This document shows positions 25,379 through 62,796 of a stretch of 64,000 nt of DNA, one piece after another (position 1 is the first letter of the stretch; every line of letters begins with the position of its first letter). Below the pieces are notes generated by a model that did no database searches, had not been told where the DNA came from, and saw only the letters and a program-made list of their open reading frames with translations. Both the position numbers and the translations under genes were made by a program. The DNA is from Actinotalea solisilvae (lineage in GTDB: Bacteria; Actinomycetota; Actinomycetes; Actinomycetales; Cellulomonadaceae): contig NZ_JADDKQ010000016.1 of the NCBI RefSeq assembly GCF_016464425.1, forward strand, positions 1-64,000. Direction: 5' to 3'.

Positions 25379-25404
25379 GGACCTAGGTCACCGGACCGAG
25401 GTCC
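25379..25404 (-). promoter_or_regulatory. Pair of DosR-like boxes upstream of OFA transporter
   Basis: GGACCTAGGTCA (25379-25390) and the perfect palindrome GGACCGAGGTCC (25393-25404) have centres 14 bp apart. They resemble DosR/DevR sites (GGGAC...GTCCC). A -10-like ATGGAT on the minus strand (25350-25345) is about 35 nt from the first centre, which fits activation from upstream. Confidence 0.5.
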
Positions 25405-46661: not shown

Positions 46662-46728
46662 CGACCGCGGGCCGCAAGCGCCGTGCCGAGGGCACCACGT
46701 CGACCTGACCGCGCCGGACGACCCCACA

Positions 46729-46782
46729 GAGCGGAGCGTCGTGCCCGACACGCCAGCGTGTCGGACCCACGACGCTCCGCTC
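46729..46782. terminator. Long hairpin between MFS and acyltransferase genes
   Basis: Outer 15-bp perfect arms (46729-46743 and 46768-46782, GAGCGGAGCGTCGTG) plus an inner GACACGC/GCGTGTC stem around CA. It lies 4 nt from the acyltransferase stop and between converging genes; bidirectional terminator likely. Confidence 0.7.
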
Positions 46783-46785
46783 GTG

Positions 46786-47361
46786 TCAGGGGGTGGGGGC
46801 GGGGCGGGGGCCCTCCTCGCGGAGGTACGGGGTCGAGCCGCGGCCCGGGCGGACGCCCCGCTTGTCGGCGTAGAACGCGCGGATGACGTCCATGTCCGCG
46901 CGCACGTCGCCCGTGAGGCGGATCGTCGGGCCGACGCCGGTGGTGCGCGTCGGGCCGTCGATGAAGCCGAGCGTCACGGCGAGGCCGGTCGCGGTCGCGA
47001 TCCGGTAGAAGCCCGACTTCCAGTGGTCGGTCGGGCGGCGCGTGCCGTCCGGCGCGATGACCACGGCGAACGCGCGGTCGGCCTGGGCGTCGGCGGTGAG
47101 CCGCTCGACGAGGCCGCCCGCGCCCCGGTCGGTCTCGAGTGCGCCGAGCGCGCGGAGCAGCGGGCCGAGCGGCCACCAGAACAGCTCGCGCTTGACCAGC
47201 ACGCGGGGCGAGACGCCCGCGTTCCAGAGCACGAGCACGGTGAGGACGAAGTCCCAGTTGGACGTGTGCGGGGCGCCGATGAACACCCCGGTGCGCGGCA
47301 CGACGCCGACCGCACGCCACCCCGCGAGCCGGAGGACCAGCGCAGCCAGACGACGCCGCAC
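46786..47361 (-). CDS. Lysophospholipid acyltransferase-like protein
   Basis: A 191-residue PlsC-like acyltransferase. The HX4D block is GAPHTSNWDFV, followed by KRELFWWPLGPLLRALGAL and PDGTRRPTDHWKSGFYRIA. This subtype is common in bacteria as a 1-acylglycerol-3-phosphate or polyol acyltransferase; substrate unknown. The start is doubtful: GTG at 47361 fits family length but lies in a hairpin, while GTG at 47421 overlaps the DEAD-box stop and adds 20 residues. Downstream of the helicase gene on the same strand. Confidence 0.82.
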   Translation of the reverse strand: MRRRLAALVLRLAGWRAVGVVPRTGVFIGAPHTSNWDFVLTVLVLWNAGVSPRVLVKRELFWWPLGPLLRALGALETDRGAGGLVERLTADAQADRAFAVVIAPDGTRRPTDHWKSGFYRIATATGLAVTLGFIDGPTRTTGVGPTIRLTGDVRADMDVIRAFYADKRGVRPGRGSTPYLREEGPRPAPTP

Positions 47362-47389
47362 CCCGGCGGGCCGGGGGCCCGCCGGGGTG
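47359..47389. terminator. 14-bp perfect hairpin after DEAD-box gene
   Basis: CACCCCGGCGGGCC/GGCCCGCCGGGGTG around loop GGG. Its outer base pair includes the GTG start of the acyltransferase. It could terminate the helicase transcript or hide the acyltransferase start. Confidence 0.6.
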
Positions 47390-47410
47390 GCGTCCTGCTC
47401 AGGATGGGGC

Positions 47411-48988
47411 TCAGCGCCCACGGCGCCGGCCACCGCCCATCGACATCTCGACGGCGCCGCTGCGGCCCGAGCCGCCGGACGAGCCGGAGCCCGACGGTGC
47501 GACCCGGAACTGCGAGCCGGGCGCACGGCCCTGCGAGGACGCGGCGCGGCCGGAGCCGCCCGCACGGCCCGAGCGCGCGCCGCCGGCGCTGCGCGCGGGA
47601 CGCGACCCGCCCGCACCGGCCTGCGCCGCGGGCGCCGAGCCGACGTGCGTCTCGGCCGCACCACGCTCGCCGCCACCGCCGCCACGACGGCGACCGCGCG
47701 TCGAGCCGGACCCAGCCGGAGCCGACGTCGTGCCGGCACTGCCGCCCGAGCGGGCCGAGCGGCCGCTGCCGCCCCGGCGCGGGGCACCGGTACGGGCCTG
47801 CTCGAGGACCGGCGGCGCGGGCGTCACGAGCGGCGCGACCTCGCCGACCAGCGCCTCGAGCGCGGGCGCGCCCGGGCGCACGGGCTGGGGACGCGCGTCG
47901 ATCTTCGCGAGGCGCGTGAGCGTCCGGACGTCACCGGTCTCCTCCGGCAGGACGAGCGTGACGACGTCGCCGCCCGACCCGGCCCGGGCCGTGCGGCCCG
48001 AGCGGTGGAGGTACGCCTTGTGCTCGGCCGGCGGGTCGACGTGGACCACGAGCTCGACCTCGTCGACATGGATGCCGCGCGCCGCGATGTCGGTCGCGAC
48101 GAGCACGCGCACGCCGCCCGTCGAGAACGCCTCGAGGTTGCGCTCGCGCGCGTTCTGGCTGAGGTTGCCGTGCAGGTCGACGGCGGGGATGCCCGCGGCC
48201 GTGAGCTGCTTGGCGAGCTTCTTCGCCTGGTGCTTGGTCCGCGTGAAGAGCAGGCGCCGGCCCATGCCGGACGCCAGGTGCTGGACGACGGCACGCTTGG
48301 TCTCGGCGTCGCCCACCGTGAAGAGGTGGTGCGTCATCGCCGCGACGGGCGACTGCGCGCTGTCCACCGAGTGCGACGTCGGGCGGTCCAGGAACCGCTT
48401 GACGAGCTGGTCGACGCCGTTGTCCAGCGTCGCCGAGAACAGCAGGCGCTGACCGTTCGAGGGCGTCGCCGTGAGGATGCGCTTGACGCCGGGCAGGAAG
48501 CCCAGGTCGGCCATGTGGTCGGCCTCGTCGAGCACGGTGATCTCGACGGCGTCGAGCGTGAGCACCTTCTGGCCCATGAGGTCCTCGAGGCGGCCGGGGC
48601 ACGCGACGACGATGTCGACGCCGGCCGCGAGCGCGACCTCCTGACGGTGCTGGCTCACGCCGCCGAAGATCGTGGTGACGCGCAGGCCGGCCGCGTCGGC
48701 GAGCGGCTCGAGGGTCGCGGCGATCTGCGTCGCGAGCTCGCGCGTCGGCGCGAGGACCAGGCCGCGCGGACGGCGCGCCACGCGGCGTCCGCCGGTGAGC
48801 CGGGCGACCATCGGGAGGCTGAACGCGAGCGTCTTGCCGGAGCCGGTGCGGCCGCGTCCGAGGACGTCCTTGCCGGCCAGGGTGTCGGGCAGGGTCGCGA
48901 CCTGGATGGGGAACGGGTCGGTGATGCCGCGCTCGGCGAGCGAGCGGGACAGGGCCTCGGGCACGCCGAGGGAGGTGAAGCTGGGCAC
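47411..48988 (-). CDS. DEAD-box ATP-dependent RNA helicase
   Basis: A 525-residue DEAD-box protein of the RhlE/DeaD type. Q motif: FTSLGVPEALSRSLAERGITDPFPIQ, split as FTSLGVPEALSRSL and GITDPFPIQ. Motif I is GRGRTGSGKTLAF; Ia APTRELATQ; II VLDEADHMADLGF; III FSATLD; V ATDIAARGIHVDEV; VI HRSGRTARAG. The C-terminal 150 residues are Gly/Arg/Ser-rich (RGG-like) and likely bind RNA. GTG start with weak GGAAAGG. The leader of at least 100 nt carries twin GTGCGCACG direct repeats (about 49084-49101), which may be an operator or cold-regulated leader. Confidence 0.94.
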   Translation of the reverse strand: MPSFTSLGVPEALSRSLAERGITDPFPIQVATLPDTLAGKDVLGRGRTGSGKTLAFSLPMVARLTGGRRVARRPRGLVLAPTRELATQIAATLEPLADAAGLRVTTIFGGVSQHRQEVALAAGVDIVVACPGRLEDLMGQKVLTLDAVEITVLDEADHMADLGFLPGVKRILTATPSNGQRLLFSATLDNGVDQLVKRFLDRPTSHSVDSAQSPVAAMTHHLFTVGDAETKRAVVQHLASGMGRRLLFTRTKHQAKKLAKQLTAAGIPAVDLHGNLSQNARERNLEAFSTGGVRVLVATDIAARGIHVDEVELVVHVDPPAEHKAYLHRSGRTARAGSGGDVVTLVLPEETGDVRTLTRLAKIDARPQPVRPGAPALEALVGEVAPLVTPAPPVLEQARTGAPRRGGSGRSARSGGSAGTTSAPAGSGSTRGRRRGGGGGERGAAETHVGSAPAAQAGAGGSRPARSAGGARSGRAGGSGRAASSQGRAPGSQFRVAPSGSGSSGGSGRSGAVEMSMGGGRRRGR

Positions 48989-49258
48989 GATGAGGTCGCC
49001 TTTCCGGCGGTGGTGGTCGGGGCTCGCGGCGGCTGTGCTGGGCTCCTGCAGAGGGCAGGTCCCACCGGTGCTCCACGACGGAGGTGCGCACGGTGCGCAC
49101 GTCTCGACATCAAGTGTCTCACGGATCGACCCGGCACCGCCCGACGGGCGGGCGGCGCCCGCGCCGGCCTGGACCGCTCAAGACCGGCGCGGCCCTGCCG
49201 ATGGGGTCGTCGTACCGGGCGTCCTGCCCGGTCCCCCGGCCCGGAAGGCGACGTCGCC

Positions 49259-52200
49259 GTGACCCACCTGCCCACGCTGCTGGTGCTGTCCCCGAGCACC
49301 GGTGGCTACTACTTCGGCTCCCTGCTCAGCGGCATCGCGCGCGAGCTCGCGGCCGCGGGCGGGCGGGCCGTCGTGGTGCAGACGCTCGAGCCGGGCATGC
49401 GCAGCGACGAGATCGGCGAGGCGCCCGAGTTCACCACCCGCGTCGCGTGGGACGAGGTCGACGGCGCCGTCTCGATCACGTCGGCGGCGCGCAGCGACTA
49501 CCTCACGGCGCTCCAGGGCACCGGCCGGCCCGTGGTCATGGCGAGCAACGTCCACGACGACCTCGTCGCGCCCGCGGCGCTCCCCGACAACCGCGGGGGC
49601 ACGGCGGCCGCCGTCGAGCACCTCGTCGCGCACGGGCACACGCGCATCGGGTTCGTCGGCAACCTGGCGCAGCGCGACATCCGCGACCGGTACGACGCCT
49701 ACCTCGCGACCCTCGAGGCGCACGGCCTGCGCGCCGTCACCGCCGACCTCTTCGACGCGCCGGACAACGGCGAGTCGGGCGGCCACGCCGCCGCCGGCGA
49801 GCTCCTGCGCGCGGAGTCCCGACCGACCGCGCTCATGGTCGCGACGGACCGCAACGCCACGGGCGTGCTCGACGTGCTGCGCAGCGCGGGCGTCGACGTG
49901 CCCGGCGACATCGCCGTCGTGGGCTTCGACAACATCGAGAACGCGAGCTTCACGAGCCCGGCGCTGACCACCGTGGACCAACCGTTCGACGAGGTCGGCG
50001 CGCTCGCCGCGCGGCTCGTGCTCGCGCGCGTCGCGGGCAAGGACGTCCCCGCGACGCCGCACGCCGCGCCCGCGACGCTCGTCGTCCGGTCGTCGTGCGG
50101 GTGCGGCACGGCGGGCGACGCGCCCGTGGCGGCCCGGCGCCGGTCCACCGTCCGTGCCATCGCGGAGAACCGCGTGCACCGCGCCCTCGCCCGGGGCGGG
50201 GCGCACGACGCCGACCTCGCGGTGACGGTCGAGGAGATCGTCACCCTCGTCGACGACCTCGTCGCGGCCGGGACCGCCGCGAGCCCGGCCGACGTCGAGC
50301 AGCTCGCGACGCGCCTGCGCCGCCAGGCGCCGCGCGCCGACGTCCTGCGGACCGTGACCCGAGCGCTCGACGAGCACGTCCGCGCGACGTCGTCGGCGGA
50401 GCGGTCGGCCCTGCTCCTCGCGGGCCTGCGCGACGTGCAGGCCGCGGCCTTCCTGCGCCAGTCGGCCGCCGTCGAGCTCATGCTCGACGAGCAGTTCGGG
50501 GTCGACGTCGGCCTCCTGGACACGGTCGCCGGCGACCCCCGGTCGCTGCGCTGGCTCGCGGGCACGCACGTGCGCAGCGCGCTCCTCGCGACCCGCACGC
50601 CCGACGGCGGCCTCACCGTCGCGGGCGTGTACGACCCGGACGAGCGGCTCGCCGCGCGGGTCGGCGACGCCACGCGCGTCGAGGAGTTCCCGCCCCGCGA
50701 CCTCGTCCTCAGCGCGCTGCCCGAGGCGCGCCAGCTCTGCTTCGTCCTGCCCGTGCGCACGCGCGAGCGCGACTGGGGCCTGCTCGCGCTCGTCGCCGAG
50801 ATCGAGATGACGTCGGCGCGCGAGACCTACCACCACTGGGCCTCCCTGCTCGCGGCCGCGCTCGAGCAGCAGGCGCTCCAGGCCGCGGTCCACGCGAGCG
50901 AGGAGCGCTACGCGCTCGTCGCCGAGGCGGCGCACGACGGCCTGTGGGACGTCGACCTGCGCACGGGCCGCGAGTACCTGTCCGACCGGTGCCGCGACCT
51001 GCTGTGCCTCGCCGAGGACGACCGCCCGGACCTGCGGACCTGGAGGACCCTCGTGCACGACGACGACCTCGAGCGGGTCGTCGCGGCGATGGTCGAGGCG
51101 CGCCGGACGACCGGGGTCGCGGTCGAGGTCGAGTTCCGCGTGCGCGCGTGCTCGGAGGGCACCCGCTGGCTGCTCAGCCGGTGCCTCGCGGTCGCGGGCC
51201 CGGACGGCGAGGCCGTGCGCCTGGTCGGCTCGCTCTCCGACATCAGCCAGCGCCGGGCGCTCGAGGAGCGCTTGCGCCACGGCGCGCTCTACGACGAGGT
51301 CACGGGCCTGCCCAACCGCCGGCTCTTCCTCGACCGGCTGACGCACGCGGTCCAGCAGCGCGAGCGCCGCCGCGAGGCGCGGTTCGCCGTGGTGTTCCTC
51401 GACCTCGACGGCTTCAAGCTCGTCAACGACTCGCTCGGCCACCTCGTCGGCGACGAGCTGCTCGTCGTCGTCGCCGACCGGCTGCGCGGCGTGCTGCGCT
51501 CGGTCGACATCGCCGCGCGCTTCGGCGGCGACGAGTTCGCCGTGCTGCTCTCCGACCCCGTCCCGGACGAGGTGCTCGTCATCGCGCGCCGCATCCAGGA
51601 GCGCATCGCCCAGCCGGTGGTGCTCGCGGGGCACGAGGTGAGCGTCACGGCGAGCGTCGGCATCGCGACGTCCGAGACGGGCTACGCCGACCCCGAGGAC
51701 GTCCTGCGCGACGCCGACATCGCGATGTACGACGCCAAGGCGGCCGAGCGCGGCAGCGCGTCGGTCTTCGACCCCGAGATGCACGCGCGCGCGTCGGGCC
51801 GGCTGCGGGCGCGCGCCGAGCTGCGCAGCGCGCTCGCGGACGGGCAGTTCGTCGTGCACTACCAGCCGATCGTCGCGCTCGACGGCGCCGGCCTGGCGCA
51901 CTTCGAGGCGCTCGTGCGCTGGCAGCACCCCACGCGGGGCCTGCTGCTGCCCGGCGCGTTCCTGCCCGCGATGGAGGACAACGCGTCGGTGGTCGCGCTC
52001 GGGCAGTGGGTGCTCGACGAGGTCTGCCGGCAGGTCGCGGCGTGGGAGGACGAGCACCGGACGCCCGCGACCGTCTCGGTGAACCTGTCGCACCAGGAGT
52101 TCTGGTCGCGGGGGCTCGTGCACTCCGTCCGGTCGGCGCTCGCGCGGCACGGTGTCGCGCCCGAGCGCCTGGTCCTGGAGATCACGGAGTCCGTGATCAT

Positions 52201-52585
52201 GGACGACCCGGACGTCGCCCGCGGCCTCATGACCGAGCTGCACGCGCTCGGCGTCCGGCTGCACATCGACGACTTCGGCACGGGCCAGTCCTCGCTCCAC
52301 GCGCTGCGCAGCTTCCCGGTCGACGCGCTGAAGATCGACGGGTCCTTCATCCGCGAGCTCGGCGACGTGCGCCAGACGACCGAGCTGGTCAGGATCATCG
52401 TGGAGATCGGCGCGGTGCTCGGCATGGACGTCGTCGCCGAGTGCGTCGAGACGTCGGACCAGGCGCAGCGGCTGCGCGAGATGGGCTGCGCCAACGCGCA
52501 GGGCTGGCTCTACGCCAAGGCGCTGCCGGGCGACGAGGCGGGCGCCCTGCTCGGCCGGGCCCTCGTCGGGGCGCTCACGCCCTGA
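49259..52585 (+). CDS. LacI-type sensor/PAS/GGDEF/EAL protein A
   Basis: A 1108-residue signalling protein. Residues 5-275 resemble the ligand-binding half of LacI regulators (LSPSTGGYYFGSLLSGIARE, GHTRIGFVGN, IAVVGFDNIE, TTVDQPFDEVG) without any DNA-binding head. CGCG lies at about 280-283. A helical/GAF-like region runs to 540, then PAS (545-665), GGDEF (677-840) and EAL (863-1105). GGDEF is intact (RFGGDEF) with inhibitory RxxD (RSVD) 5 residues before. EAL motif FEALVRW, NLSHQEF, ITES, IDDFGTGQSS and LKIDGSF are all kept. Both synthesis and breakdown of c-di-GMP look possible. No membrane helix. Confidence 0.93.
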   Translation: MTHLPTLLVLSPSTGGYYFGSLLSGIARELAAAGGRAVVVQTLEPGMRSDEIGEAPEFTTRVAWDEVDGAVSITSAARSDYLTALQGTGRPVVMASNVHDDLVAPAALPDNRGGTAAAVEHLVAHGHTRIGFVGNLAQRDIRDRYDAYLATLEAHGLRAVTADLFDAPDNGESGGHAAAGELLRAESRPTALMVATDRNATGVLDVLRSAGVDVPGDIAVVGFDNIENASFTSPALTTVDQPFDEVGALAARLVLARVAGKDVPATPHAAPATLVVRSSCGCGTAGDAPVAARRRSTVRAIAENRVHRALARGGAHDADLAVTVEEIVTLVDDLVAAGTAASPADVEQLATRLRRQAPRADVLRTVTRALDEHVRATSSAERSALLLAGLRDVQAAAFLRQSAAVELMLDEQFGVDVGLLDTVAGDPRSLRWLAGTHVRSALLATRTPDGGLTVAGVYDPDERLAARVGDATRVEEFPPRDLVLSALPEARQLCFVLPVRTRERDWGLLALVAEIEMTSARETYHHWASLLAAALEQQALQAAVHASEERYALVAEAAHDGLWDVDLRTGREYLSDRCRDLLCLAEDDRPDLRTWRTLVHDDDLERVVAAMVEARRTTGVAVEVEFRVRACSEGTRWLLSRCLAVAGPDGEAVRLVGSLSDISQRRALEERLRHGALYDEVTGLPNRRLFLDRLTHAVQQRERRREARFAVVFLDLDGFKLVNDSLGHLVGDELLVVVADRLRGVLRSVDIAARFGGDEFAVLLSDPVPDEVLVIARRIQERIAQPVVLAGHEVSVTASVGIATSETGYADPEDVLRDADIAMYDAKAAERGSASVFDPEMHARASGRLRARAELRSALADGQFVVHYQPIVALDGAGLAHFEALVRWQHPTRGLLLPGAFLPAMEDNASVVALGQWVLDEVCRQVAAWEDEHRTPATVSVNLSHQEFWSRGLVHSVRSALARHGVAPERLVLEITESVIMDDPDVARGLMTELHALGVRLHIDDFGTGQSSLHALRSFPVDALKIDGSFIRELGDVRQTTELVRIIVEIGAVLGMDVVAECVETSDQAQRLREMGCANAQGWLYAKALPGDEAGALLGRALVGALTP

Positions 52586-52641
52586 CCCGACCGCGGCTGC
52601 CGCGCGCCTCGCCCCGCCGGACGGGCGCCTACGCTCGCGGG

Positions 52642-53616
52642 ATGAAGATCGTCGTCCCGGGCGGGACCGGCCAGGTCGGAGGCCTGCTGCGGCGCGCGCT
52701 CGTCGCCGACGGCCACGAGGTCACGGTGCTGAGCCGCCGGCCCGAGCGCCTCGAGGACGGCGTGCGCCACGCGGTCTGGGACGGCCGGACGCTCGGCGCG
52801 TGGGCCGACGAGGTCGACGGGGCGGACGCCGTGGTCAACCTCGCCGGGCGCTCGGTGAGCTGCCGCTACACCGACGCGAACCTGCGCCAGATGATGTCGT
52901 CGCGCGTCGACTCGACGCGCGTCGTCGGGCAGGCGATCGAGCGCGCGGACGCGCCCCCGCGGGTCTGGCTCCAGATGAGCACCGCCACGATCTACGCGGA
53001 CGCGCGCAGCCGCGGGGACGGCCTGCCGCACGACGAGGCGACCGGCGTGCTCGGCGGCGACGAGCCGGACGTGCCGCTGTACTGGGAGTACAGCGTGCGG
53101 ATCGCGCGGCGCTGGGAGGAGGCGCAGGCGGAGGCCGACGTCCCGGGGACGCGCCGGGTCGCGCTCCGCACGGCCATGGTCATGACGCCGGACCGCGGCG
53201 GCGTCTTCGACTACCTCTCGTGGATGGCGCGCCTCGGCCTCGGCGGTCCGGTCGACGGCGGGCGCCAGCACGTGTCCTGGATCCACGGCGAGGACTTCGC
53301 GCGCGCCGTCGCGCTGCTGCTCGAGCGCGAGGACCTCGACGGCCCGGTGATCCTCGCGGCGCCCGAGCCGGTCGAGCAGCGCGAGCTCATGCGCTCGCTC
53401 CGCACGGCGTGGGGCGGCCGCCCCGGCCTGCCGGCCACCCGCCTCATGGCGGAGGTGGGTGCCCTCGTGCTGCGCACCGACACCGAGCTGCTGCTCAAGA
53501 GCAGGCGCGTCGTGCCACGGCGCCTCCTCGACGCCGGGTTCGCGTTCCGCCACCCCACGTGGCACGACGCGGCCGCCGACCTCGCCGCGCAGCGGCGCCG
53601 CGTCGCGCGCGTCTGA
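52642..53616 (+). CDS. TIGR01777-family NAD-dependent epimerase
   Basis: A 324-residue extended SDR of the SDR39U1/YfcH type. Rossmann motif PGGTGQVGG; VVNLAGRSVSCRYT; MSTATIYAD with Ser; YWEYSVRIARRWE with Tyr and Lys-position Arg. VSWIHGEDFARAV is the family signature in the middle, and DAGFAFRHPTW ends it. Function is unknown in the family; YfcH-like proteins are linked to cell division in some species. ATG is 6 nt after TACGCT (leaderless). It sits between the two large paralogues but has no clear link to c-di-GMP. Confidence 0.92.
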   Translation: MKIVVPGGTGQVGGLLRRALVADGHEVTVLSRRPERLEDGVRHAVWDGRTLGAWADEVDGADAVVNLAGRSVSCRYTDANLRQMMSSRVDSTRVVGQAIERADAPPRVWLQMSTATIYADARSRGDGLPHDEATGVLGGDEPDVPLYWEYSVRIARRWEEAQAEADVPGTRRVALRTAMVMTPDRGGVFDYLSWMARLGLGGPVDGGRQHVSWIHGEDFARAVALLLEREDLDGPVILAAPEPVEQRELMRSLRTAWGGRPGLPATRLMAEVGALVLRTDTELLLKSRRVVPRRLLDAGFAFRHPTWHDAAADLAAQRRRVARV

Positions 53617-53728
53617 CGAAGGTCTTCCGCGCCCGCCCTCGCGCTCCGGGCGAGACGTGCCGATAGGAGTCCAGGGCCGCGCACCACCGTGCGCGCCGAA
53701 CCGCGACCGGGAGCGTCCAGAGGACCAC

Positions 53729-56700
53729 ATGTTCCACATCGGTGTGCTGTCCCCCGTCACGGGCGGGTTCTACTTCGGCGAGGTGCTCGCCGGCGTGGTC
53801 CGCGAGGTCGCCGCGGCGGGTGGCCGGGTCGCCCTCGTCCAGACCCTTGACGCCGGCCACTCGGGCGACGAGCTCGTGCCCGCCCCGGACGTCGCCGCCC
53901 CCGTGGGCTGGGAGCACCTCGACGGTCTCGTCACCGTCGCGCAGGCCACCGACGCCGGCTACCTCCAGCGCGTGCGCGCGACCGGCACGCCCGTCGTCGT
54001 CGTGAGCAACGACCTCGACGTCGACGCCGCGCACGTCGTCGCCGACAACGTCACGGGCGTGCGGACCGCGGTGACGCACCTCGTCGAGCACGGCCACCGG
54101 CACGTGGCGTTCGTCGGCAACCTCGCGCAGACGGACATGCTCGAGCGCTTCGAGGCCTACCGGGCCGGGCTCGCCGCGCACGGGCTGCCCGCGGGCGACG
54201 ACCTCTTCCTGCCCGCCGCCGACCACGTCGAGACGGGCGGCCTCGCCGCCGCCGAGGCGCTCGCCGCACGCGTCGGCGGCCCGGACGGCGTGACCGCGGT
54301 CGTCGTGTCGACCGACCGCACGGCGCTCGGCCTCATCGAGGGCCTCCAGGCCCGCGGCCTCCGCGTGCCCGAGGACGTCGCCGTCGTGGGCTTCGACGAC
54401 GTCGAGGCCGGCTGGCACTCCTCCCCCGCGCTCGCGACCGTCAACCAGCAGATCGCCGAGCTCGGGGCGCGCGCCGCGCGGCTGCTCCTGGCCGAGCTCG
54501 CGGGCGAGCCCGTCGAGCACGTGCACCACCGCGTGCCGTCGACGTTCCTCGCGCGCCGCTCGTGCGGCTGCGGCGCCAACGTCGTCGGTGGCTCGGACCG
54601 CGGCACGCTCGCGGGCGCCACGGTCGCGGACGCGATCGCCGACCTGCTCGGCCGGCGCACGGGTGGCGGGAGCGGGTGCCTCGACGAGCTCGACGCGCTC
54701 GTCGTCGGGCTCGTGCGGTCGCTCTTCCCGACCGCCCCCTCGCCCGAGACGATCGAGGCCTTCACCGAGAGCGTCGTCGGCCGGCTCGACGCGATCACCC
54801 GCGGCCTCGCGCCCGACGACGCCGGGGGCCGCGACCTCGTGAGCCGCGCGGTCGTGCGGGTGAGCGTCGCGCTCCTGCGCCTGCAGGCCGTCTCGGGCCA
54901 GGAGAAGTCGTCCAAGCTCGCCCACTCGCTCGCCGAGCAGTACGACGTCGGCATGGGGCTCCTCGGCCACATCGGCGCGGACCCGAGCGACCTCGCGTGG
55001 CTGCGCCAGGTCTCCGTGCGCCTGGGGTACCTCGCGCTGTGGGACGGACCGCCGTCCGCAGGCCGGCTGCGGACGGCGGGCGTCTACGACCCGCACGGGC
55101 TCCTGCCCGCCGCGCTGCCCGCGCACCTGCCGGTCGAGCAGCTCCCGCCGCGCGAGGTCATGGCGCAGGCCGACGCCCACGCGGACGAAGTGACCTTCGT
55201 CGTCCCGGTCCGCGGCACGAGCGGCGACCACGGCTTCCTGTGCGTCGTCGGCGAGGTGGACACCACGGCGGGCACGGGACGCGCGACCTACAACCACTGG
55301 GCGGCGCTGCTCGGCGTGGCGCTCCAGCAGGAGGCGCTCGTCGAGACCGTGCGCCGCAGCGAGGAGCGGTACTCGCTCGCGGCCGCCGCGACGCACGACG
55401 GCCTGTGGGACTGGGACGTCGCGGGCGGCGAGTGCTTCTACTCCGAGCGCTGCCAGGACATGCTCGGCACCACCCAGGGTCGCGCGACGGACCTGCGCCC
55501 GCGCCGCGAGCGCCGCGGCGACGCGCCCGAGCTGCTCCCGTGGCTCGGCGCCGTGCACCACGACGACCTCGCGGCCGTGCGCAGCGAGCTGCGGCGCGCC
55601 GCCGTCGACGGGCAGGCGATCGAGGTCGAGCACCGGGTCGTCCTGCGCGACGGGACGCACCGCTGGCTGCTGTGCCGGGCCGTGCCCGAGGGCGAGCCCG
55701 GCACGCCCGCGCGCCGCGTCGTCGGCTCGCTCGCCGACATCCACCCGCGCAAGGAGCTCGAGGACCAGCTGCGCCAGGCGGCGATGTTCGACACGGTCAC
55801 CGGCCTGCCCAACCGCCGCCTGTTCCTCGACCGGCTCTCGTGGGCCGTCGAGCAGTCGCAGCGGGGACGGGGCGCGCGCTTCGCCGTCGTGTTCCTCGAC
55901 CTGGACGGCTTCAAGCTCGTCAACGACTCCCTCGGCCACCTCGTCGGGGACGAGCTCCTCGCGACCATCGGTCAGCGCCTGCGCGACGACCTGCGCTCGG
56001 TCGACACCGCCGCGCGGTTCGGCGGCGACGAGTTCGCGGTCCTCCTCTACGACCTCAGGCACGAGGCGGTGCTCTCGATCGTCGAGCGCATCCAGGGGCG
56101 CATCGCGGCGCCCGTCGTGCTCGCCGGGCACGAGGTCGCGGTCACCGCGAGCGTCGGCATCGCGACGTCGGACACGGGCTACCACGACGCCGAGGACGTG
56201 CTGCGCGACGCCGACATCGCGATGTACCACGCCAAGGAGGCCGAACGCGGCACCGCGAGCGTCTTCGACCCCGAGATGCACTCGCGCGCGACGGGCCGGC
56301 TGCTCGCCCAGACCGAGCTGCGCACGGCCCTGCTCGAGCACCAGTTCGTCGTGCACTACCAGCCGGTGGTCGCGCTCGACGGGTCCTCGCTCACGCAGTT
56401 CGAGGCGCTGGTCCGCTGGGAGCACCCGACGCGCGGCATCATGCTGCCCGGCGACTTCCTGCCCGTCATGGCCGAGAGCGGCACGATCGTCACGCTCGGC
56501 CAGTGGATCGTCGACGAGGTCGCGGCGCAGGTCGCGGCGTGGCGGCGCACCTACGACGGCCCGGTCTCCGTCTCGGTCAACCTGTCCCACCGGGAGTTCT
56601 GGTCCGAGCAGCTGCTCGCGACCGTGACGCAGGCGCTCACGCGGCACCGCGTCCCGCCGTCGTGCCTCGTGCTCGAGATCACCGAGTCGGTCATCATGTC

Positions 56701-57088
56701 CGACCCCGAGGCGGCCCGGCAGATCATGGCCGACCTCCACGCGGCCGGCGTCCGGCTGCACATCGACGACTTCGGGACCGGGCACTCCTCGCTCAACGCG
56801 CTGCGCGCGTTCCCGGTGGACGCGCTGAAGATCGACCAGTCGTTCGTCGCGCAGCTCGCGACCGACCACCAGACGAGCGAGCTCGTGCGGATCATCGTCG
56901 CGATGGGACGGACGCTCGGCATGGAGGTCGTCGCCGAGGGGGTCGAGACGCCCGAGCAGGAGGAGCGCCTGCGCACCATGGGCTGCGTCCAGGCGCAGGG
57001 CTGGCTCTACGCACGCGCGCTGCCGGGCGACGAGGCGGGCGCGATGCTCGGGAGCCGGGTCCACGGCCAGGCCGTCGGGGTCGGCTGA
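53729..57088 (+). CDS. LacI-type sensor/PAS/GGDEF/EAL protein B
   Basis: A 1119-residue paralogue of protein A with the same layout. LacI-type sensor at 1-275 (LSPVTGGFYFGEVLAGVVRE, GHRHVAFVGN, VAVVGFDDVE). SCGCG at about 277. A helical/GAF-like segment follows (NHWAALLGVALQQEAL ends it), then PAS at 544-680, GGDEF at 686-850 and EAL at 872-1115. Catalytic residues are intact: RFGGDEF with RSVD inhibitory site, FEALVRW, NLSHREF, ITESVIM, IDDFGTGHSS. ATG with AGAGGA upstream. The two genes probably arose by duplication and now bind different ligands. Confidence 0.93.
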   Translation: MFHIGVLSPVTGGFYFGEVLAGVVREVAAAGGRVALVQTLDAGHSGDELVPAPDVAAPVGWEHLDGLVTVAQATDAGYLQRVRATGTPVVVVSNDLDVDAAHVVADNVTGVRTAVTHLVEHGHRHVAFVGNLAQTDMLERFEAYRAGLAAHGLPAGDDLFLPAADHVETGGLAAAEALAARVGGPDGVTAVVVSTDRTALGLIEGLQARGLRVPEDVAVVGFDDVEAGWHSSPALATVNQQIAELGARAARLLLAELAGEPVEHVHHRVPSTFLARRSCGCGANVVGGSDRGTLAGATVADAIADLLGRRTGGGSGCLDELDALVVGLVRSLFPTAPSPETIEAFTESVVGRLDAITRGLAPDDAGGRDLVSRAVVRVSVALLRLQAVSGQEKSSKLAHSLAEQYDVGMGLLGHIGADPSDLAWLRQVSVRLGYLALWDGPPSAGRLRTAGVYDPHGLLPAALPAHLPVEQLPPREVMAQADAHADEVTFVVPVRGTSGDHGFLCVVGEVDTTAGTGRATYNHWAALLGVALQQEALVETVRRSEERYSLAAAATHDGLWDWDVAGGECFYSERCQDMLGTTQGRATDLRPRRERRGDAPELLPWLGAVHHDDLAAVRSELRRAAVDGQAIEVEHRVVLRDGTHRWLLCRAVPEGEPGTPARRVVGSLADIHPRKELEDQLRQAAMFDTVTGLPNRRLFLDRLSWAVEQSQRGRGARFAVVFLDLDGFKLVNDSLGHLVGDELLATIGQRLRDDLRSVDTAARFGGDEFAVLLYDLRHEAVLSIVERIQGRIAAPVVLAGHEVAVTASVGIATSDTGYHDAEDVLRDADIAMYHAKEAERGTASVFDPEMHSRATGRLLAQTELRTALLEHQFVVHYQPVVALDGSSLTQFEALVRWEHPTRGIMLPGDFLPVMAESGTIVTLGQWIVDEVAAQVAAWRRTYDGPVSVSVNLSHREFWSEQLLATVTQALTRHRVPPSCLVLEITESVIMSDPEAARQIMADLHAAGVRLHIDDFGTGHSSLNALRAFPVDALKIDQSFVAQLATDHQTSELVRIIVAMGRTLGMEVVAEGVETPEQEERLRTMGCVQAQGWLYARALPGDEAGAMLGSRVHGQAVGVG

Positions 57089-57190
57089 CGCCGCCCCTCC
57101 CGCACCGAAACGGACATACCGGGGCCTTCCGACCTGCGGAAATGCGACACCGCGGCGCATCAGGGTGAATCTGCCCGGTGCCCCCCGAAC

Positions 57191-57225
57191 GGACCTAGGT
57201 CCCTGGTCCGGGGGCGGCCTAGCGT
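57191..57225 (+). promoter_or_regulatory. DosR-like palindrome and -10 box of membrane GGDEF/EAL gene
   Basis: GGACCTAGGTCC at 57191-57202 is a perfect palindrome and shares GGACCTAGGTC with the site at 25379. A TAGCGT -10 box lies at 57220-57225. Leader of about 80 nt to the ATG at 57315. Confidence 0.45.
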
Positions 57226-57314
57226 CGGGCCACCCCCTTCCCCCGAGGGGACCGCAGACGGCGGCCGCCGGCTTCCCCCGAGCCGGCGGCACGCCCCGAC
57301 GTCCTCGGTGACCC

Positions 57315-59321
57315 ATGACCAGACGACTCGCGCACCGGCCGGCAGGGCCGACCCGGCTGTCGCTCACGCGCCGGTTCGGCCTCACGAGCCTGCTCGGCAT
57401 GGCGCTGGTCGGGGCCGCGCTCGTCGCGACGACGTCGCACGTCCTGCACCAGCAGGCGGTCCGGGAGGGCGTGGCCACCGCCGAGGCCGTCACGCGCCTC
57501 GCCACCTCCGAGCTCCCGGGCGGCGCGCTCGCGGGCGGCGTCCTCACCGCGGGCCAGACGGCCACGCTCGACGCGCGCCTCGTGGGGCTCGACGAGCGTC
57601 TCGTCGGGCTGCGCCTGTGGACCCCCGACGGCTCGGTGGTCTACGACTCGGCGGTGGTCGAGGGCGCACCCGCGGCCTTCCCGGACGTCGAGCGGCTCGA
57701 CGCCGCCACGCTGCGGGGCGAGGCGGCGCCGCGGGTGCGGACCCACGTCGACGGCCTGCCGGGCGGGACCGGCACCCTGGGCGCCCGTCTGGAGGTGCTC
57801 GACGTCTACGTCCCGGTCGTGGTCGCCGGCCGCGTCGTCGGGGCTGCCGAGGTGATGCTCGACCAGGCGACGACGGCGGCCGACCGGGACCGCGCCACGA
57901 CGACCCTCACGGCCGTCGCCGCGCTCGGCCTGCTCCTGCTCTGGCTCGTGCTCTTCCGCTCGGTGCACAGCGCGTCCGAGCGGCTCCAGCGCAGCGCCAT
58001 GGACAACGCCCGCCTCGCGCTGCTGGACGCGCTCACCGGCCTGCCCAACCGGCGCATGCTCCTCGACCGCCTCGACCGCGCCGTCGCCGGTGCGGCCCGC
58101 TCGCCCCACGGCGGCACGGGCATCGGGATCCTGCTGCTCGACGTCGACCGCTTCAAGGACATCAACGACTCGCTCGGCCACGACCGCGGCGACGAGCTGC
58201 TGGTCCAGGTCGCCACGCGCCTCATGGAGGCCTTCCGCGGCCGCGACCTCGTCGCACGGCTCGGCGGCGACGAGTTCGCGGTGCTGCTCCCCGGCGTCAC
58301 CTCGGTCGCCGATGCCGAGGCGCTGGCGCACCGCGCCCGCGCGGTGTTCACCGACCCGTTCGTGCTGGGCGGCATGAGCGTGCACGTCGCCACGTCGATC
58401 GGCGTCGCCGTCCTGCCGGACCACGCCGACGACGCGGGGAGCCTCATGCGACGCGCGGACGTCGCGATGTACACCGCCAAGCAGCACCGGCTCGGCGTCG
58501 CGGTCTACGACGCGGCCGACGACGACTCGAGCCCCGCCCGCCTCGTGCTCCAGGCCGAGCTGCACCGCGCGCTCACGCGCACGGACGAGCTGACCATGCA
58601 CTACCAGCCGAAGATCGACCTCGAGCACGGCCGGACCGTGGGGCTCGAGGCGCTCATGCGCTGGCGCCACCCCACGCGCGGCGAGGTGGAGCCGTCGGTG
58701 TTCATCCCGCTCGCGGAGCAGTCCGGCCTCATCGACGAGCTCACGTGGTTCGCGCTGCGCACGGTCGTCGCGCAGATCGCGCGGTGGTCGCCCGAGCAGC
58801 GTCTGCCCGTGGCCGTGAACCTCTCCGCGCACACCGTCGCGCAGGCCGACGTGGTCGACACGATCACGCGCCTGCTCGACGAGCACGGCGTCGAGACGCG
58901 CTGGCTCGAGGCCGAGATCACCGAGACCGCCGTGGTCGCCGACCCGGCGCGGGTCGTGCCCGTGCTGCGGCGGCTGTCCGCGGCGGGCGTGCGCGTCGCC
59001 ATCGACGACTTCGGCATCGGCAGCACGTCGTTCGCGCAGCTGCGCGACCTCCCGGTCGACGTCCTCAAGATCGACCGGCTCTTCATCGAGGACCTGCGCG
59101 ACGAGTCCACCGCGGCGCGCAGCCGGACCGTCATCAAGGCGATGGTCGACCTCGCCCACTCCTTCGGCATGCAGGTGGTCGCGGAGGGCGTCGAGGACCC
59201 CGAGACCGCCGCGTGCCTCCGCTCGCTCGACGTCGACCAGGCCCAGGGCTTCTGGTTCTCGCCGGCCGTCCCCCCGGGCGACCTCGCAGGGCGGCGCGTG
59301 CGCGTGCCCGCCCTGCCCTGA
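57315..59321 (+). CDS. Membrane-anchored GGDEF/EAL c-di-GMP enzyme C
   Basis: A 668-residue protein. A first membrane helix is at about 20-42 (FGLTSLLGMALVGAALVATT), an outside sensor domain at 43-190, and a second helix at about 196-214 (LTAVAALGLLLLWLVLF). GGDEF runs from about 235 to 395 with ARLGGDEFAVLL and RxxD (RGRD); EAL from about 425 to 660 with GLEALMRWRHPTRG, NLSAHTV, EITETAVV, IDDFGIGSTS and LKIDRLFI. Both sites look active. The EAL box is intact. It begins the block that continues with the TasA-like/SipW genes. Confidence 0.93.
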   Translation: MTRRLAHRPAGPTRLSLTRRFGLTSLLGMALVGAALVATTSHVLHQQAVREGVATAEAVTRLATSELPGGALAGGVLTAGQTATLDARLVGLDERLVGLRLWTPDGSVVYDSAVVEGAPAAFPDVERLDAATLRGEAAPRVRTHVDGLPGGTGTLGARLEVLDVYVPVVVAGRVVGAAEVMLDQATTAADRDRATTTLTAVAALGLLLLWLVLFRSVHSASERLQRSAMDNARLALLDALTGLPNRRMLLDRLDRAVAGAARSPHGGTGIGILLLDVDRFKDINDSLGHDRGDELLVQVATRLMEAFRGRDLVARLGGDEFAVLLPGVTSVADAEALAHRARAVFTDPFVLGGMSVHVATSIGVAVLPDHADDAGSLMRRADVAMYTAKQHRLGVAVYDAADDDSSPARLVLQAELHRALTRTDELTMHYQPKIDLEHGRTVGLEALMRWRHPTRGEVEPSVFIPLAEQSGLIDELTWFALRTVVAQIARWSPEQRLPVAVNLSAHTVAQADVVDTITRLLDEHGVETRWLEAEITETAVVADPARVVPVLRRLSAAGVRVAIDDFGIGSTSFAQLRDLPVDVLKIDRLFIEDLRDESTAARSRTVIKAMVDLAHSFGMQVVAEGVEDPETAACLRSLDVDQAQGFWFSPAVPPGDLAGRRVRVPALP

Positions 59322-59370
59322 CCCACCCGCACCCCATCCGCAGCGAGTCCCTCACCCCCGGAGGACCACC

Positions 59371-60018
59371 ATGGACGACCTCATCCGCGAGATGATCACA
59401 CCGCCGCGCGACCGCGTGGACGCCGCGCGCCGCCGGCGCCTCGCCGCGACCGCCGTCACCGTCGCCCTCGCGGCGGCCGGCGTCACGTCGCTGACGACCG
59501 GCGCCCTCTTCACCGACACCGAGACGCTCGGGGCTGCCGAGCTGACGACCGGGACCGTCCAGATCGCCCCGACGATGTCGCCCACGGTGACGCTCGGCGC
59601 CGCGGGCATGGCGCCGGGCGACACGACGTACGGCCTCGTGACGGTCCAGAACGCCGGCAGCCTGGCCCAGCGCTACGCGGTCTCCCTCCAGGCCACCAAC
59701 GACGACGTCGCCGTCGACCTCGCGGGCGAGCTCGAGCTCGCGGTCTACGCGACGAGCACGTGCACCGCACCCGCGGTCGCGGCCCTCACGCCGGTCGTCG
59801 CGGTCACGGGCCTGCCGACCGCGCTGACGCCGCTCGTCGGCGACCCGGCCACGGGCCAGCAGCCCACACGCGGCGGCGACCGGTTCCTCCCGACCGGTGC
59901 GGCCGAGGACCTCTGCGTCACCGTCCACGTGCCGCTCGCGACCGACAACACGTTCCAGGGCGCGGGCGCCGCGCTCGTGCTCCGCTTCGACGCCGAGCAG
60001 ACCGTCAACAACCCCTGA
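59371..60018 (+). CDS. TasA-like secreted fibre protein (SipW-type signal)
   Basis: A 215-residue secreted protein. Residues 20-50 form a SipW-dependent-type signal: RRRRLAATAVTVALAAAGV followed by TGALFTDTETLGAAELTTGT. The rest is a TasA/camelysin-like beta-sandwich (TVQNAGSLAQRYAVSLQATN). TasA proteins polymerise into biofilm fibres. Two Cys (STCT, DLCV) may make a disulfide. ATG with GGAGGACCACC upstream. The peptidase gene starts 13 nt after. Confidence 0.8.
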   Translation: MDDLIREMITPPRDRVDAARRRRLAATAVTVALAAAGVTSLTTGALFTDTETLGAAELTTGTVQIAPTMSPTVTLGAAGMAPGDTTYGLVTVQNAGSLAQRYAVSLQATNDDVAVDLAGELELAVYATSTCTAPAVAALTPVVAVTGLPTALTPLVGDPATGQQPTRGGDRFLPTGAAEDLCVTVHVPLATDNTFQGAGAALVLRFDAEQTVNNP

Positions 60019-60031
60019 TGCGGAGCCCACG

Positions 60032-60673
60032 ATGACCGCCGTCGCGGCGACGGCGTCACGCACCCTCGCGTGGACCGTCGTCGTCGCGTGCGTGGGCGCG
60101 TTCGCCGTGAGCACGCTCGCGCCGCTCTGGTTCCAGCTGCGCGACCAGCGCCTGCTGCTCGTCACGTCCGGCTCGATGGCGCCCGCGTTCCAGGCGGGCG
60201 ACGCCGTCGTCATCCAGGCGATCGAGGACCCGAGCGAGCTGCGCGTCGGCCAGGTGGCGACGTTCTGGCCGCCCGGCGGGGACCGCCTCGTCACGCACCG
60301 CATCGTCGACCTGCGCAGCCTGCCCGTCCTCGTCCCCGACCCCGCGACCGGCGAGATGGTCCCGCGCCTCGACGAGGCGACGGGCGCGCCGCTCGAACGG
60401 CCGTACATCGTGACCCAGGGCGACGCGAACGAGACGCCGGACCCGGACGCGACGCCCCTGTCGCGCGTGCGGGGCGTCGTGCTCGAGGTGCACCCGGGCT
60501 GGGGCGAGGTGCTCGGGTGGGCGCACTCGCCCACGGGCCGGTGGACGCTCCTCGTCCCGCCGCTCCTCGCGCTCGCCGCGCTCGAGCTCGTCGCGACCGT
60601 CGCCGAGCGGCGCCACCGCCCGGCGCCCCGACCCGGCCGGGAGGAGGTGCTCGATGCGTACCTCCTCGAGTGA
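60032..60673 (+). CDS. SipW-type signal peptidase I
   Basis: A 213-residue membrane protease. One helix near residues 10-28, then the catalytic Ser in VTSGSMAPAF. Where bacterial enzymes have Lys it has His in RLVTHRIVDL, the ER/SipW subclass, and GDANETPDP follows with Asp. A second helix is at residues 175-195. SipW-like enzymes process TasA-type pre-proteins, so the flanking TasA-like and LamG-like proteins are its likely substrates. ATG 13 nt after the TasA-like stop; its end overlaps the next gene by 20 nt. Confidence 0.88.
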   Translation: MTAVAATASRTLAWTVVVACVGAFAVSTLAPLWFQLRDQRLLLVTSGSMAPAFQAGDAVVIQAIEDPSELRVGQVATFWPPGGDRLVTHRIVDLRSLPVLVPDPATGEMVPRLDEATGAPLERPYIVTQGDANETPDPDATPLSRVRGVVLEVHPGWGEVLGWAHSPTGRWTLLVPPLLALAALELVATVAERRHRPAPRPGREEVLDAYLLE

Positions 60674-61472
60674 CGCGGACCTGGCGGACCGCGCCGGCGC
60701 CCGGGCCCTCCCCCCGGCCGCACCTCGGCGCGCGCGTGGCGCGCTCGTGCTCGTCGCGGCCGCGGCGATCGGCGCGACGTCGGGCGGCGCCCTGCCCTCC
60801 CCCGGCACGACGGCCGCGCTGCTCACCGCGGCGCACGACGTCGCCGCGAGCGTGGCCGTCGCGCCGTGCGACCCGGCGAGGTGGGAGGACGCGGCCGCGG
60901 CCGCGGCCCCGGTGCTGCGGTGGCGGCTCGACCCGGCCGACCTGCGGCCGTACGACACCGCCGCCGCCTCGCTCCTCGGCTGCGGCGCCGGGGGTGCGCG
61001 CGACCTCGCCCCGGCCGACGCCGGGCTCACCGCGGACCCGCTGCCGCTCGCATCGCCGGCGGACCTCACCGTCACGGTGTGGACCGGCCGCACCGACGCG
61101 GCGTCGGCCGAGGGGTCGCTGCTCGAGCTCGCGGGCGCTGGGCGGGACGTGCGCGTCGTCGTCGTGCCGGGCGGCGGGCTCGAGGTGCGGTACGCCGCCG
61201 CGGGCGGGCCGCACGTGCTCGTCGCGCCGTCGCTCGGCGAGGGTGCCCACCTCCTGGCCCTCGTGGTCGGCGCGGGCGGCGTCCGGCTCGCGGTCGACGG
61301 CGTCGACGTCGCGAGCGGCCCGGCCGAGGCCGATCCCACCGCGCCCGTCGCGCTCACCCTCGGCGCGGCGGCGGGCACCGCGGCCGACGTCGTCGTCGAC
61401 GACCTGCTGGTGCTCGACGACGCCCTCGCGGGCCCCGCGCTGGCCGGGCTGGCCGCCGCCGCGCGCTGGTGA
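60654..61472 (+). CDS. Secreted LamG-like (concanavalin fold) protein
   Basis: A 272-residue secreted protein. The signal region RRARGALVLVAAAAIGATSGGAL resembles SipW-type signals. The rest contains a beta-jelly-roll of LamG/concanavalin type: ADLTVTVWTGRTD, SLLELAGAGRDVRVVV, VRLAVDGVDVASGP and DVVVDDLLVLDDALAG. The fold binds sugars or proteins, so a matrix or adhesin role is possible. ATG lies 20 nt inside the SipW gene, so all three genes form one operon. Confidence 0.78.
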   Translation: MRTSSSDADLADRAGARALPPAAPRRARGALVLVAAAAIGATSGGALPSPGTTAALLTAAHDVAASVAVAPCDPARWEDAAAAAAPVLRWRLDPADLRPYDTAAASLLGCGAGGARDLAPADAGLTADPLPLASPADLTVTVWTGRTDAASAEGSLLELAGAGRDVRVVVVPGGGLEVRYAAAGGPHVLVAPSLGEGAHLLALVVGAGGVRLAVDGVDVASGPAEADPTAPVALTLGAAAGTAADVVVDDLLVLDDALAGPALAGLAAAARW

Positions 61473-61524
61473 GCGCGCGCGCCGTGCGCGGGGCCGGCCG
61501 TCTGGGGCGTCGTCCGCCGGCTGG

Positions 61525-61536
61525 CACGATGGCGCG
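61525..61536 (+). promoter_or_regulatory. Leaderless-type -10 box of M50 gene
   Basis: CACGAT (61525-61530), 6 nt, then GTG at 61537; same as at 11706 and 21120. Confidence 0.5.
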
Positions 61537-62262
61537 GTGATCGCCGAGCTCTGGTCCCGCGTCGTGGCCGCGCAGCCGCTGCCCACCGCACCCGTCGTCC
61601 TCGCCACCGCCGCGATCGCGCTCGTGCTCGTGCTCGTGCCGTGGCTGTGGCGCGTCACGCGGCACCTCGTCACGGTCGCGCACGAGGGCGGGCACGCGGT
61701 CGCCGCGGTGCTGAGCGGACGGCGGCTCACGGGAATCCGGCTGCACTCGGACACGTCCGGGCTCACCGTCTCGCGCGGGCGCCCCCGCGGGCCGGGCATG
61801 GTCGTCACGCTCCTCGCGGGCTACACGGGCCCGGCGCTCGTCGGGCTGGGTGCGGCGGCGCTGCTCTCGACCGGGCGCGCGGTGGCGCTGCTCTGGGGCG
61901 TCCTGCTGCTGCTCGCGCTGCTCCTGCTGCAGATCCGCAACCTCTTCGGGCTGTGGGTCGTGCTCGTGTGCGGCGCGGGCGTGTTCGCCGTCTCCTGGTG
62001 GCTCGCGCCCGAGCAGCAGTTCGCCGTCGCCCTCACCCTGACGTTCTTCCTGCTGCTCGGTGCGCCGCGCGCGGTGCTGGAGCTCCTCGCGACCCGCCGC
62101 GCGGGCGTCCGGACGTCCGACCCCGACCAGCTCGCGCGGCTCACGCGCGTCCCCGCTGGCGCCTGGGTCGCCGTCCTCGTCCTCGTCACCGTGGGCGCGG
62201 CCGCCGCCGGAGCCGGCCTGCTGCTCCCCGACCTGGCCGCGCGCGTCACGTCACTCGTCTAG
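61537..62262 (+). CDS. M50-family membrane metallopeptidase
   Basis: A 241-residue protein with about six helices. The zinc motif is VAHEGGHAVAAVLSG (HExxH as HEGGH), early in the protein after one helix. PGMVVTLLAGYTGPALVGLGA is the second conserved stretch of the actinobacterial M50B-like group. An Asp zinc ligand of site-2 proteases is not clear, so substrate and activity are open. Convergent overlap of 12 nt with the DUF1697 gene. Confidence 0.87.
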   Translation: MIAELWSRVVAAQPLPTAPVVLATAAIALVLVLVPWLWRVTRHLVTVAHEGGHAVAAVLSGRRLTGIRLHSDTSGLTVSRGRPRGPGMVVTLLAGYTGPALVGLGAAALLSTGRAVALLWGVLLLLALLLLQIRNLFGLWVVLVCGAGVFAVSWWLAPEQQFAVALTLTFFLLLGAPRAVLELLATRRAGVRTSDPDQLARLTRVPAGAWVAVLVLVTVGAAAAGAGLLLPDLAARVTSLV

Positions 62263-62796
62263 CGCCTCGAGCGCCGCGCGGATCTTGAGCATCGTGCGCA
62301 GGTTGCGGTCGGTGATCCACGGCTTGTAGCGGGCCTTCGAGCCGAGCTTGCTCTGCGCGTCGTCGAGCGTGCGACCCACCGGCGCCTGCCACGCCGCCGC
62401 CTCGGGACCGAGGCGCGTTCGCGGGGCGTCGGGGGCGGCCTCGGCGATCGACACGTCGAGCTCGTCGAGCCGCGCCGGGTCCGACGTGACGGTGACGTAG
62501 GTGTGCAGCGTCTCCGAGTCCGGCGGGTAGGGACACGCGTCGATCAGCTCGGCCAGCCGCTCGGCCGTGAGGACGACCACCCAGGCGTCGTAGCCGAACC
62601 GCTCACGCAGCGCGCCCTCGACGAGCACCTTGAGCGCGCCCGCGTCGCCGTCGTACCGGCACACGACGTTGCCGGACGCGAGCAAGGTCCGGGCGTCCGT
62701 GACCGGGAGCTCGGCCAGCAGGGCCCGGAGGTCGGCCGAGCGCACGGTGACGCCGCCGACGTTGACGCCTCGCAGGAGCACCGCGTACCGGGTCAT
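62251..62796 (-). CDS. DUF1697 protein
   Basis: A 181-residue DUF1697 protein. YAVLLRGVNVGG at the start, LLASGNVVC, and the C-terminal KLGSKARYKPWITDRNLRTM are the family marks. Function unknown. The ATG lies 6 nt after TACGGT on the minus strand (leaderless). The 3' end overlaps the M50 gene by 12 nt. Confidence 0.93.
   Translation of the reverse strand: MTRYAVLLRGVNVGGVTVRSADLRALLAELPVTDARTLLASGNVVCRYDGDAGALKVLVEGALRERFGYDAWVVVLTAERLAELIDACPYPPDSETLHTYVTVTSDPARLDELDVSIAEAAPDAPRTRLGPEAAAWQAPVGRTLDDAQSKLGSKARYKPWITDRNLRTMLKIRAALEALDE

Follow-up and report, generated by a model that had tools for sequence, protein, structure and literature searches.

The window considered here is a 64,000-nucleotide stretch of Actinotalea solisilvae DNA (contig NZ_JADDKQ010000016.1, positions 1 to 64,000), and four adjacent genes on its forward strand, at 57315-61472, are read with moderate confidence as a matrix-fibre unit with a cyclic diguanosine monophosphate (c-di-GMP) enzyme at its head. 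The first gene (P0001; 57315-59321) encodes a membrane GGDEF-EAL protein of 668 residues. It is followed after 49 nucleotides by the gene of a TasA/camelysin-like protein of 215 residues (P0002; 59371-60018), the candidate fibre subunit, and, a further 13 nucleotides on, by that of a SipW-like signal peptidase (P0003; 60032-60673). The fourth gene (P0004; 60654-61472) overlaps the end of sipW by 20 nucleotides (60654-60673), with the sequence GGAGGAG just upstream, and its product combines a SipW-type signal, a TasA-like first strand and a C-terminal LamG domain. The initial annotation had proposed these four open reading frames and the 49-nucleotide spacing between the first two, and both were recovered.

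The order of these genes is strongly conserved within the family. Fifty-eight loci from a named collection were retrieved by the N-terminal tag of the TasA-like protein (described below) or by signal motif, with gene linkage forming no part of the selection. In 58/58, the gene immediately upstream of the TasA-like gene, on the same strand, is an orthologue of the GGDEF-EAL gene, which argues that the arrangement is more than chance. A sipW gene lies downstream of the TasA-like gene in 57 of them, and the remaining locus (L103), without sipW, lies at a contig end. Most of the loci are from Cellulomonas or Actinotalea, together with one Pengzhenrongella, one 'Cellulosimicrobium' and a few Actinomycetales/Micrococcales bins; among the named relatives found, Actinotalea ferrariae is the closest (TasA identity 78%). 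A set of 40 family loci, hand-chosen from genomes that matched in the family searches and partly overlapping the 58, kept the order in 36; in the remaining four the TasA/SipW locus is weak or different (L078 and L079 were left out of the locus analysis). At L076 and L173 (genomes G132 and G196), a SipW-like gene accompanies several TasA-like genes and the enzyme is not adjacent; these loci are perhaps other fibre systems.

Among 200 family genomes, a search with the whole TasA-like protein returned matches in 79 at E ≤ 0.001, of which 72 were strong (E < 1e-20). The N-terminal sensor part of the enzyme, used alone as query, was matched in 74, and 71 genomes held both the sensor part and a strong TasA. 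In the sole strong-TasA genome without the sensor part (G039), identity is 30-35% for TasA and SipW, and the enzyme is not adjacent (L067). The sensor part occurs without a strong TasA in G014, G001 and G174, the last of which has a contig that ends approximately 200 nucleotides after the enzyme match. Genes flanking the unit vary between lineages.

The assignment of the second protein to the TasA/camelysin type is supported by its sequence profile, its predicted β-sandwich fold and its putative interface residues. It matches Pfam Peptidase_M73 (camelysin) at E 1e-5 (25.9 bits against a cut-off of 22.5), and its profile finds the Bacillus subtilis TasA structures 8aur (E 7.5e-7) and 5of1 (E 1.1e-6) in the PDB; 48 of 59 family members match the NCBIfam TasA model at E ≤ 0.1. 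The predicted model has a mean predicted local distance difference test (pLDDT) score of 82.8, with residues 40-55 below 50. Its best Foldseek match is the TasA fibre 8aur (E 5.9e-6, TM-scores 0.46/0.43), followed by the archaeal bundling pili of Pyrobaculum (7ueg, E 2.8e-4). Aligned on 8aur (Z 9.0, root-mean-square deviation 4.4, 148 residues, 16% identity), model residue 46 falls on TasA residue 28, which places the mature N-terminus in register. The predicted mature protein would begin at L46 (codon 59506-59508, + strand), after T-G-A and before F47, and T43, A45, F47 and D49 are invariant in the 59 TasA-like sequences. Likewise invariant are P82 and Q210, which together with F47 match TasA P62, Q232 and F29 in the profile alignment. 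In B. subtilis, F29, P62, Q232 and F200 are described as a conserved inter-subunit proline box, and the donor strand is taken to begin at A28-F29 (PMC10151520).

A surface protein or protease-like camelysin of the same fold, rather than a fibre subunit, is distinctly unlikely as an account of this protein. The Pfam family is named for a camelysin metallo-endopeptidase, and the low identity to TasA across the fold alignment fits such a protein as well; against this, conservation falls on the residues of the TasA subunit interface, and the best structural match is to the fibre form, with the N-termini in register.

The third protein matches the archaeal-type signal peptidase I model TIGR02228 at 61.1 bits (cut-off 51.85). 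It had been thought odd in carrying His in place of Lys, a view that does not hold: Ser48 (60173-60175, + strand) and His89 (60296-60298, + strand) are kept in 58/58 aligned SipW sequences and are normal for the type. A Ser/His pair is the usual catalytic pair of the signal peptidases of the endoplasmic reticulum and archaea. With the Bacillus SipW equivalog NF046067 the protein scores 43.8 bits, short of the curated cut-off of 190. By these sequence measures it would be an ER/archaeal-type peptidase that is SipW-like and lies outside the Bacillus equivalog. The A. solisilvae genome, the record of which gives 8.17% contamination, contains a single match for SipW and a single match for TasA.

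The LamG protein encoded by the fourth gene (Pfam Laminin_G_3, E 5.3e-8) is a lineage-specific extended form of a conserved and usually much smaller gene. In 56 of 57 named loci the fourth gene starts at position -20 from the sipW end (54 ATG, 2 GTG), and at L130 it starts three nucleotides later. Fifty-six fourth proteins exceed 50 residues, that of the window included; L109 (21 residues, at a contig end) was dropped, and the lengths at L080, L102, L115 and L128 are lower limits imposed by contig ends. The predicted mature part spans 16-101 residues in 48, three of them cut by a contig end, and 215-362 residues in the eight of LamG type; the shortest complete mature part has 19 residues. Typically, then, the gene product consists only of a SipW-type signal and a single TasA-like strand followed by a short tail. 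Laminin_G_3 was found by Pfam in the four LamG-type members tested (the window, L107, L081 and L040), the others being aligned only.

The proposal that the LamG protein carries a SipW-dependent signal gained support at the level of sequence. Its predicted mature part begins at 60819-60821 (+ strand), at a site T-A-A↓L-L-T located by motif search. When the fourth-gene profile is compared with that of TasA, the match (probability 95%, E 3.4e-8) extends over the signal and first strand and includes the membrane segment, which may raise the score. The strict cut-site motif is present in 38 of 56 fourth proteins and in 4 of 195 membrane-type control reading frames; by eye, three of these four are fourth genes beside an uncalled sipW and one is a SipW-type protein between TasA-like genes (L076). 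An earlier control (15/213) was discarded as contaminated by fourth genes. When the best-scoring site was taken from each of the 56 proteins, with only F, L, Y or M allowed at +2, T stood at -3 in 44, A at -1 in 55 and D at +4 in 46, and the +2 residue was F, L, Y or M in 37, 13, 5 and 1, respectively.

Because the fourth gene starts inside sipW codons, sipW itself partly dictates the -20 position, and the tails of the fourth proteins are variable and of low complexity. Both points suit the suggestion that the short gene is a by-product of the conserved sipW end and yields no functional peptide. This appears very improbable, as the membrane segment and the motif T-x-A↓x-F-x-D lie past the sipW stop and are conserved there, and the guanine and cytosine content by codon position looks coding in most loci.

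In its SipW-type signal, TasA-like N-terminal strand and overlap with sipW, the fourth gene has features of the tapA type. No NCBIfam model matched P0004 at E ≤ 0.1, and no TapA family or Ig-like TapA domain was detected in it. It is not filed as TapA, since it matches Laminin_G_3 and no TapA model. In B. subtilis, TapA is described as donating its N-terminus to TasA, and a strain secreting only TapA residues 44-57 forms a proper biofilm (PMC10151520). The minimal fourth protein resembles this sufficient fragment, and by analogy it may act as a fibre starter. A scan for fourth-like genes outside the family gave two candidates, at L177 and L203, the latter at the end of the stretch retrieved for that locus.

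The protein at the head of the unit carries the sequence motifs expected of a bifunctional GGDEF-EAL enzyme. Pfam identifies both domains (EAL, E 4.6e-70; GGDEF, E 1.4e-44). The GGDEF motif (58263-58277, + strand), with its RxxD inhibitory site five residues upstream, and the EAL motif (58647-58655, + strand), checked along with other EAL-domain motifs, are intact in 59/59 aligned orthologues. An extracytoplasmic, Cache/PAS-like sensor part is predicted at approximately residues 45-190 (~57447-57884, + strand) from an AlphaFold2 model with a mean pLDDT of 88.0. In Foldseek this model resembles the WalK ectodomain (4ywz, E 5.5e-5), an integrative WalK-YycH model ranking first, as well as chemoreceptor Cache domains, with modest TM-scores.

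Taken as a fibre unit, the four genes suggest the following scheme. The TasA-like protein would be exported by its special signal and cut by the SipW-like peptidase, as the motif and gene order imply, and its freed N-terminal strand would insert into the next subunit to build a donor-strand fibre, in keeping with the fold and interface residues. The fourth protein, which has the same type of cut site, may start or cap the fibre through its TasA-like first strand, as TapA does in B. subtilis, and the LamG domain, which it also carries in Actinotalea and a few relatives, may serve to attach it to carbohydrate or to the cell surface. The membrane enzyme would sense an outside cue through its Cache/PAS-like domain and set c-di-GMP, which could tie fibre output to the sessile switch. 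Such c-di-GMP control is suggested by linkage and co-occurrence.

A number of observations weigh against this reading. The TasA-like protein of the window itself matches no NCBIfam model, and the runner-up in its fold list is an unrelated sialidase (Z 7.9). The SipW-signal model is matched by only 2 of 36 minimal fourth proteins, even at E ≤ 1, and free TapA peptide alone is reported as a weak accelerator in vitro (PMC10151520), which counts against a bare peptide as an efficient starter. Gaps between the enzyme and TasA genes range from -8 to 263 nucleotides in the named loci (median 99; ≤50 in 8/58), and the wide ones could hold a promoter. No c-di-GMP riboswitch was found in 46500-62500, where the two chance matches belong to eukaryotic families and fall far below gathering scores; a scan for sigma-70 promoters and terminators found none, and is uninformative at this G+C. 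The unit is unevenly distributed across its own genus: of 19 genomes, 6 have a strong TasA and 8 have the sensor part. In two genomes of that genus (G014, locus L168, and G001, locus L170), the enzyme is followed directly by the M50B gene that comes after the LamG gene in the window, with no fibre genes between. Finally, TasA-SipW pairs outside the family stand without the enzyme within 1.5 kilobases (kb) on each side.

At the site between the enzyme and M50B genes, then, the fibre genes occur together or not at all, an argument against an enzyme devoted exclusively to the fibre. The GGDEF-EAL part of P0006 proved too distant an outgroup, and the tree rooted with it was rejected. In the tree without an outgroup, the two enzyme copies lacking the fibre cassette join six Actinotalea-type copies in one clade (100/100) and fall outside those six (91/96, not starred), a placement that does not distinguish loss from gain of the fibre genes. 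One might propose that the linkage reflects co-expression only, with the fibre genes riding on the enzyme promoter and the enzyme feeding a general c-di-GMP pool, for motility or polysaccharide, without acting on the fibre. The enzyme copies of G014 and G001 favour this explanation, as do the 20 EAL matches of the A. solisilvae genome (beside one PilZ match), which indicate that c-di-GMP is widely used there. It is nevertheless rather improbable, given that a strong TasA accompanies the sensor part in 71 of 74 genomes, in varied flanking contexts. Some EAL matches in this genome have identical scores on contig pairs (C9/C24 and C3/C29), which, with the recorded contamination, fits duplication or contamination in the assembly.

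A more specific form of the fibre-unit reading concerns the tag MDDLIREMITP (59371-59403, + strand), which precedes the membrane segment of the TasA-like protein and, from alignment and model, is predicted to be helical (residues 3-9) and probably cytosolic. Its residues D2, M8 and P11 are invariant in 59 sequences. The pattern MD[DE][LI]xx[ED]M begins 56 of 59 TasA sequences and none of 55 from outside or unlinked loci, although counts from the 58 named loci are enriched by a search that used the tag or signal motif. In the form MDDLLxEMI, the tag is seen only at enzyme-linked loci, and it would be lost with the signal peptide. It is conceivable, if doubtful, that the enzyme is dedicated to gating fibre release locally, that the precursor tag could dock to it or to a c-di-GMP-dependent checkpoint before the SipW cut, and that the fibre starts from a donor-strand peptide that is free by nature and can be as short as 19 residues.

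Several features adjoin the unit. A perfect palindrome, GGACCTAGGTCC, lies at 57191-57202, approximately 115 nucleotides upstream of the enzyme gene, with a one-mismatch copy at 25379. It was rejected as an operator: six matches at ≤2 mismatches were found against 3.0 expected, a number reached in 11 of 100 shuffles; the complete CCTAGG core plus flanks is absent upstream of the named orthologues, and any CTAG occurs in 7/58. An M50B-like membrane metallopeptidase gene (HEGGH) follows the LamG gene at 61537-62262, and an M50B gene lies upstream of the enzyme in L107, L108 and L116. As the initial annotation had stated, two larger c-di-GMP proteins are encoded just upstream (49280-52585 and 53729-57088), in tandem, each with a LacI-type sugar-binding domain (Peripla_BP_3), PAS, GGDEF and EAL; a domain search detected no DNA-binding domain in either. 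Several of the searched loci also have relatives of these proteins on the upstream side of the enzyme.

Beyond the family, TasA matches were found in 41 of 297 genomes of an order sample, own family included, and in 24 of 396 genomes of a sample of Actinomycetota, the window's own included. The loci retrieved from these samples include 1.5 kb on either side. Of 22 order-sample loci (21 of other families), two from one genus (L164 and L165) have a GGDEF gene nearby, on the strand opposite to TasA; the 29 phylum-sample loci contain no GGDEF/EAL match, and five of them matched none of six query proteins. TasA-like and SipW-like genes are adjacent elsewhere in Actinomycetota, and the pairing in itself is therefore not novel. 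These other pairs differ further in having no MDDL tag (55 loci scanned). The original view of a new, c-di-GMP-controlled TasA/SipW matrix module stands for the lasting gene link, in Cellulomonas and part of Actinotalea, and not for the novelty of the pair. The novelty lies in the minimal form of the fourth gene and in the position of the c-di-GMP enzyme as the first gene of the unit.

Bacillus is the best-known source of TasA fibres, and archaeal relatives exist, such as the bundling pili of Pyrobaculum, a TasA-related donor-strand fibre (PMC9674648); the present system is bacterial. The tapA-sipW-tasA operon of B. subtilis likewise has a TasA homologue, a SipW-type peptidase and a sipW-overlapping partner with a TasA-like N-terminal strand (PMC10151520). 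The order here is instead tasA-sipW-fourth gene, the partner is minimal or LamG-bearing with no Ig-like TapA domain detected, a GGDEF-EAL gene heads the unit, and TasA has a predicted cytosolic tag. Camelysin/TasA subunits, SipW and an accessory protein are also shared with B. cereus sipW-calY1-bc_1280-calY2 and CapP/TasA/CalY, where there are two camelysins rather than one TasA; excerpts of the sources make no mention of a c-di-GMP enzyme in that operon (PMC10151520, PMC13082335). Titles and abstract openings of the open-access literature gave no report of a TasA/SipW unit with GGDEF-EAL, a novelty that is provisional as most subscription papers lie outside the search, and no open-access literature was found on an operon of a TasA-like protein with a diguanylate cyclase. 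Open-access papers on SipW with c-di-GMP and GGDEF concern Bacillus and, in one case, Anoxybacillus, and the one on SipW with Cellulomonas concerns B. subtilis.

With the enzyme heading the TasA unit in nearly every unit-bearing genome of the family, these bacteria offer a natural system in which to test the coupling of c-di-GMP to fibres. The minimal fourth gene would be a natural version of the laboratory-trimmed TapA fragment tapA1-57 (PMC10151520), and would thereby let the donor-strand starter model be tested directly.

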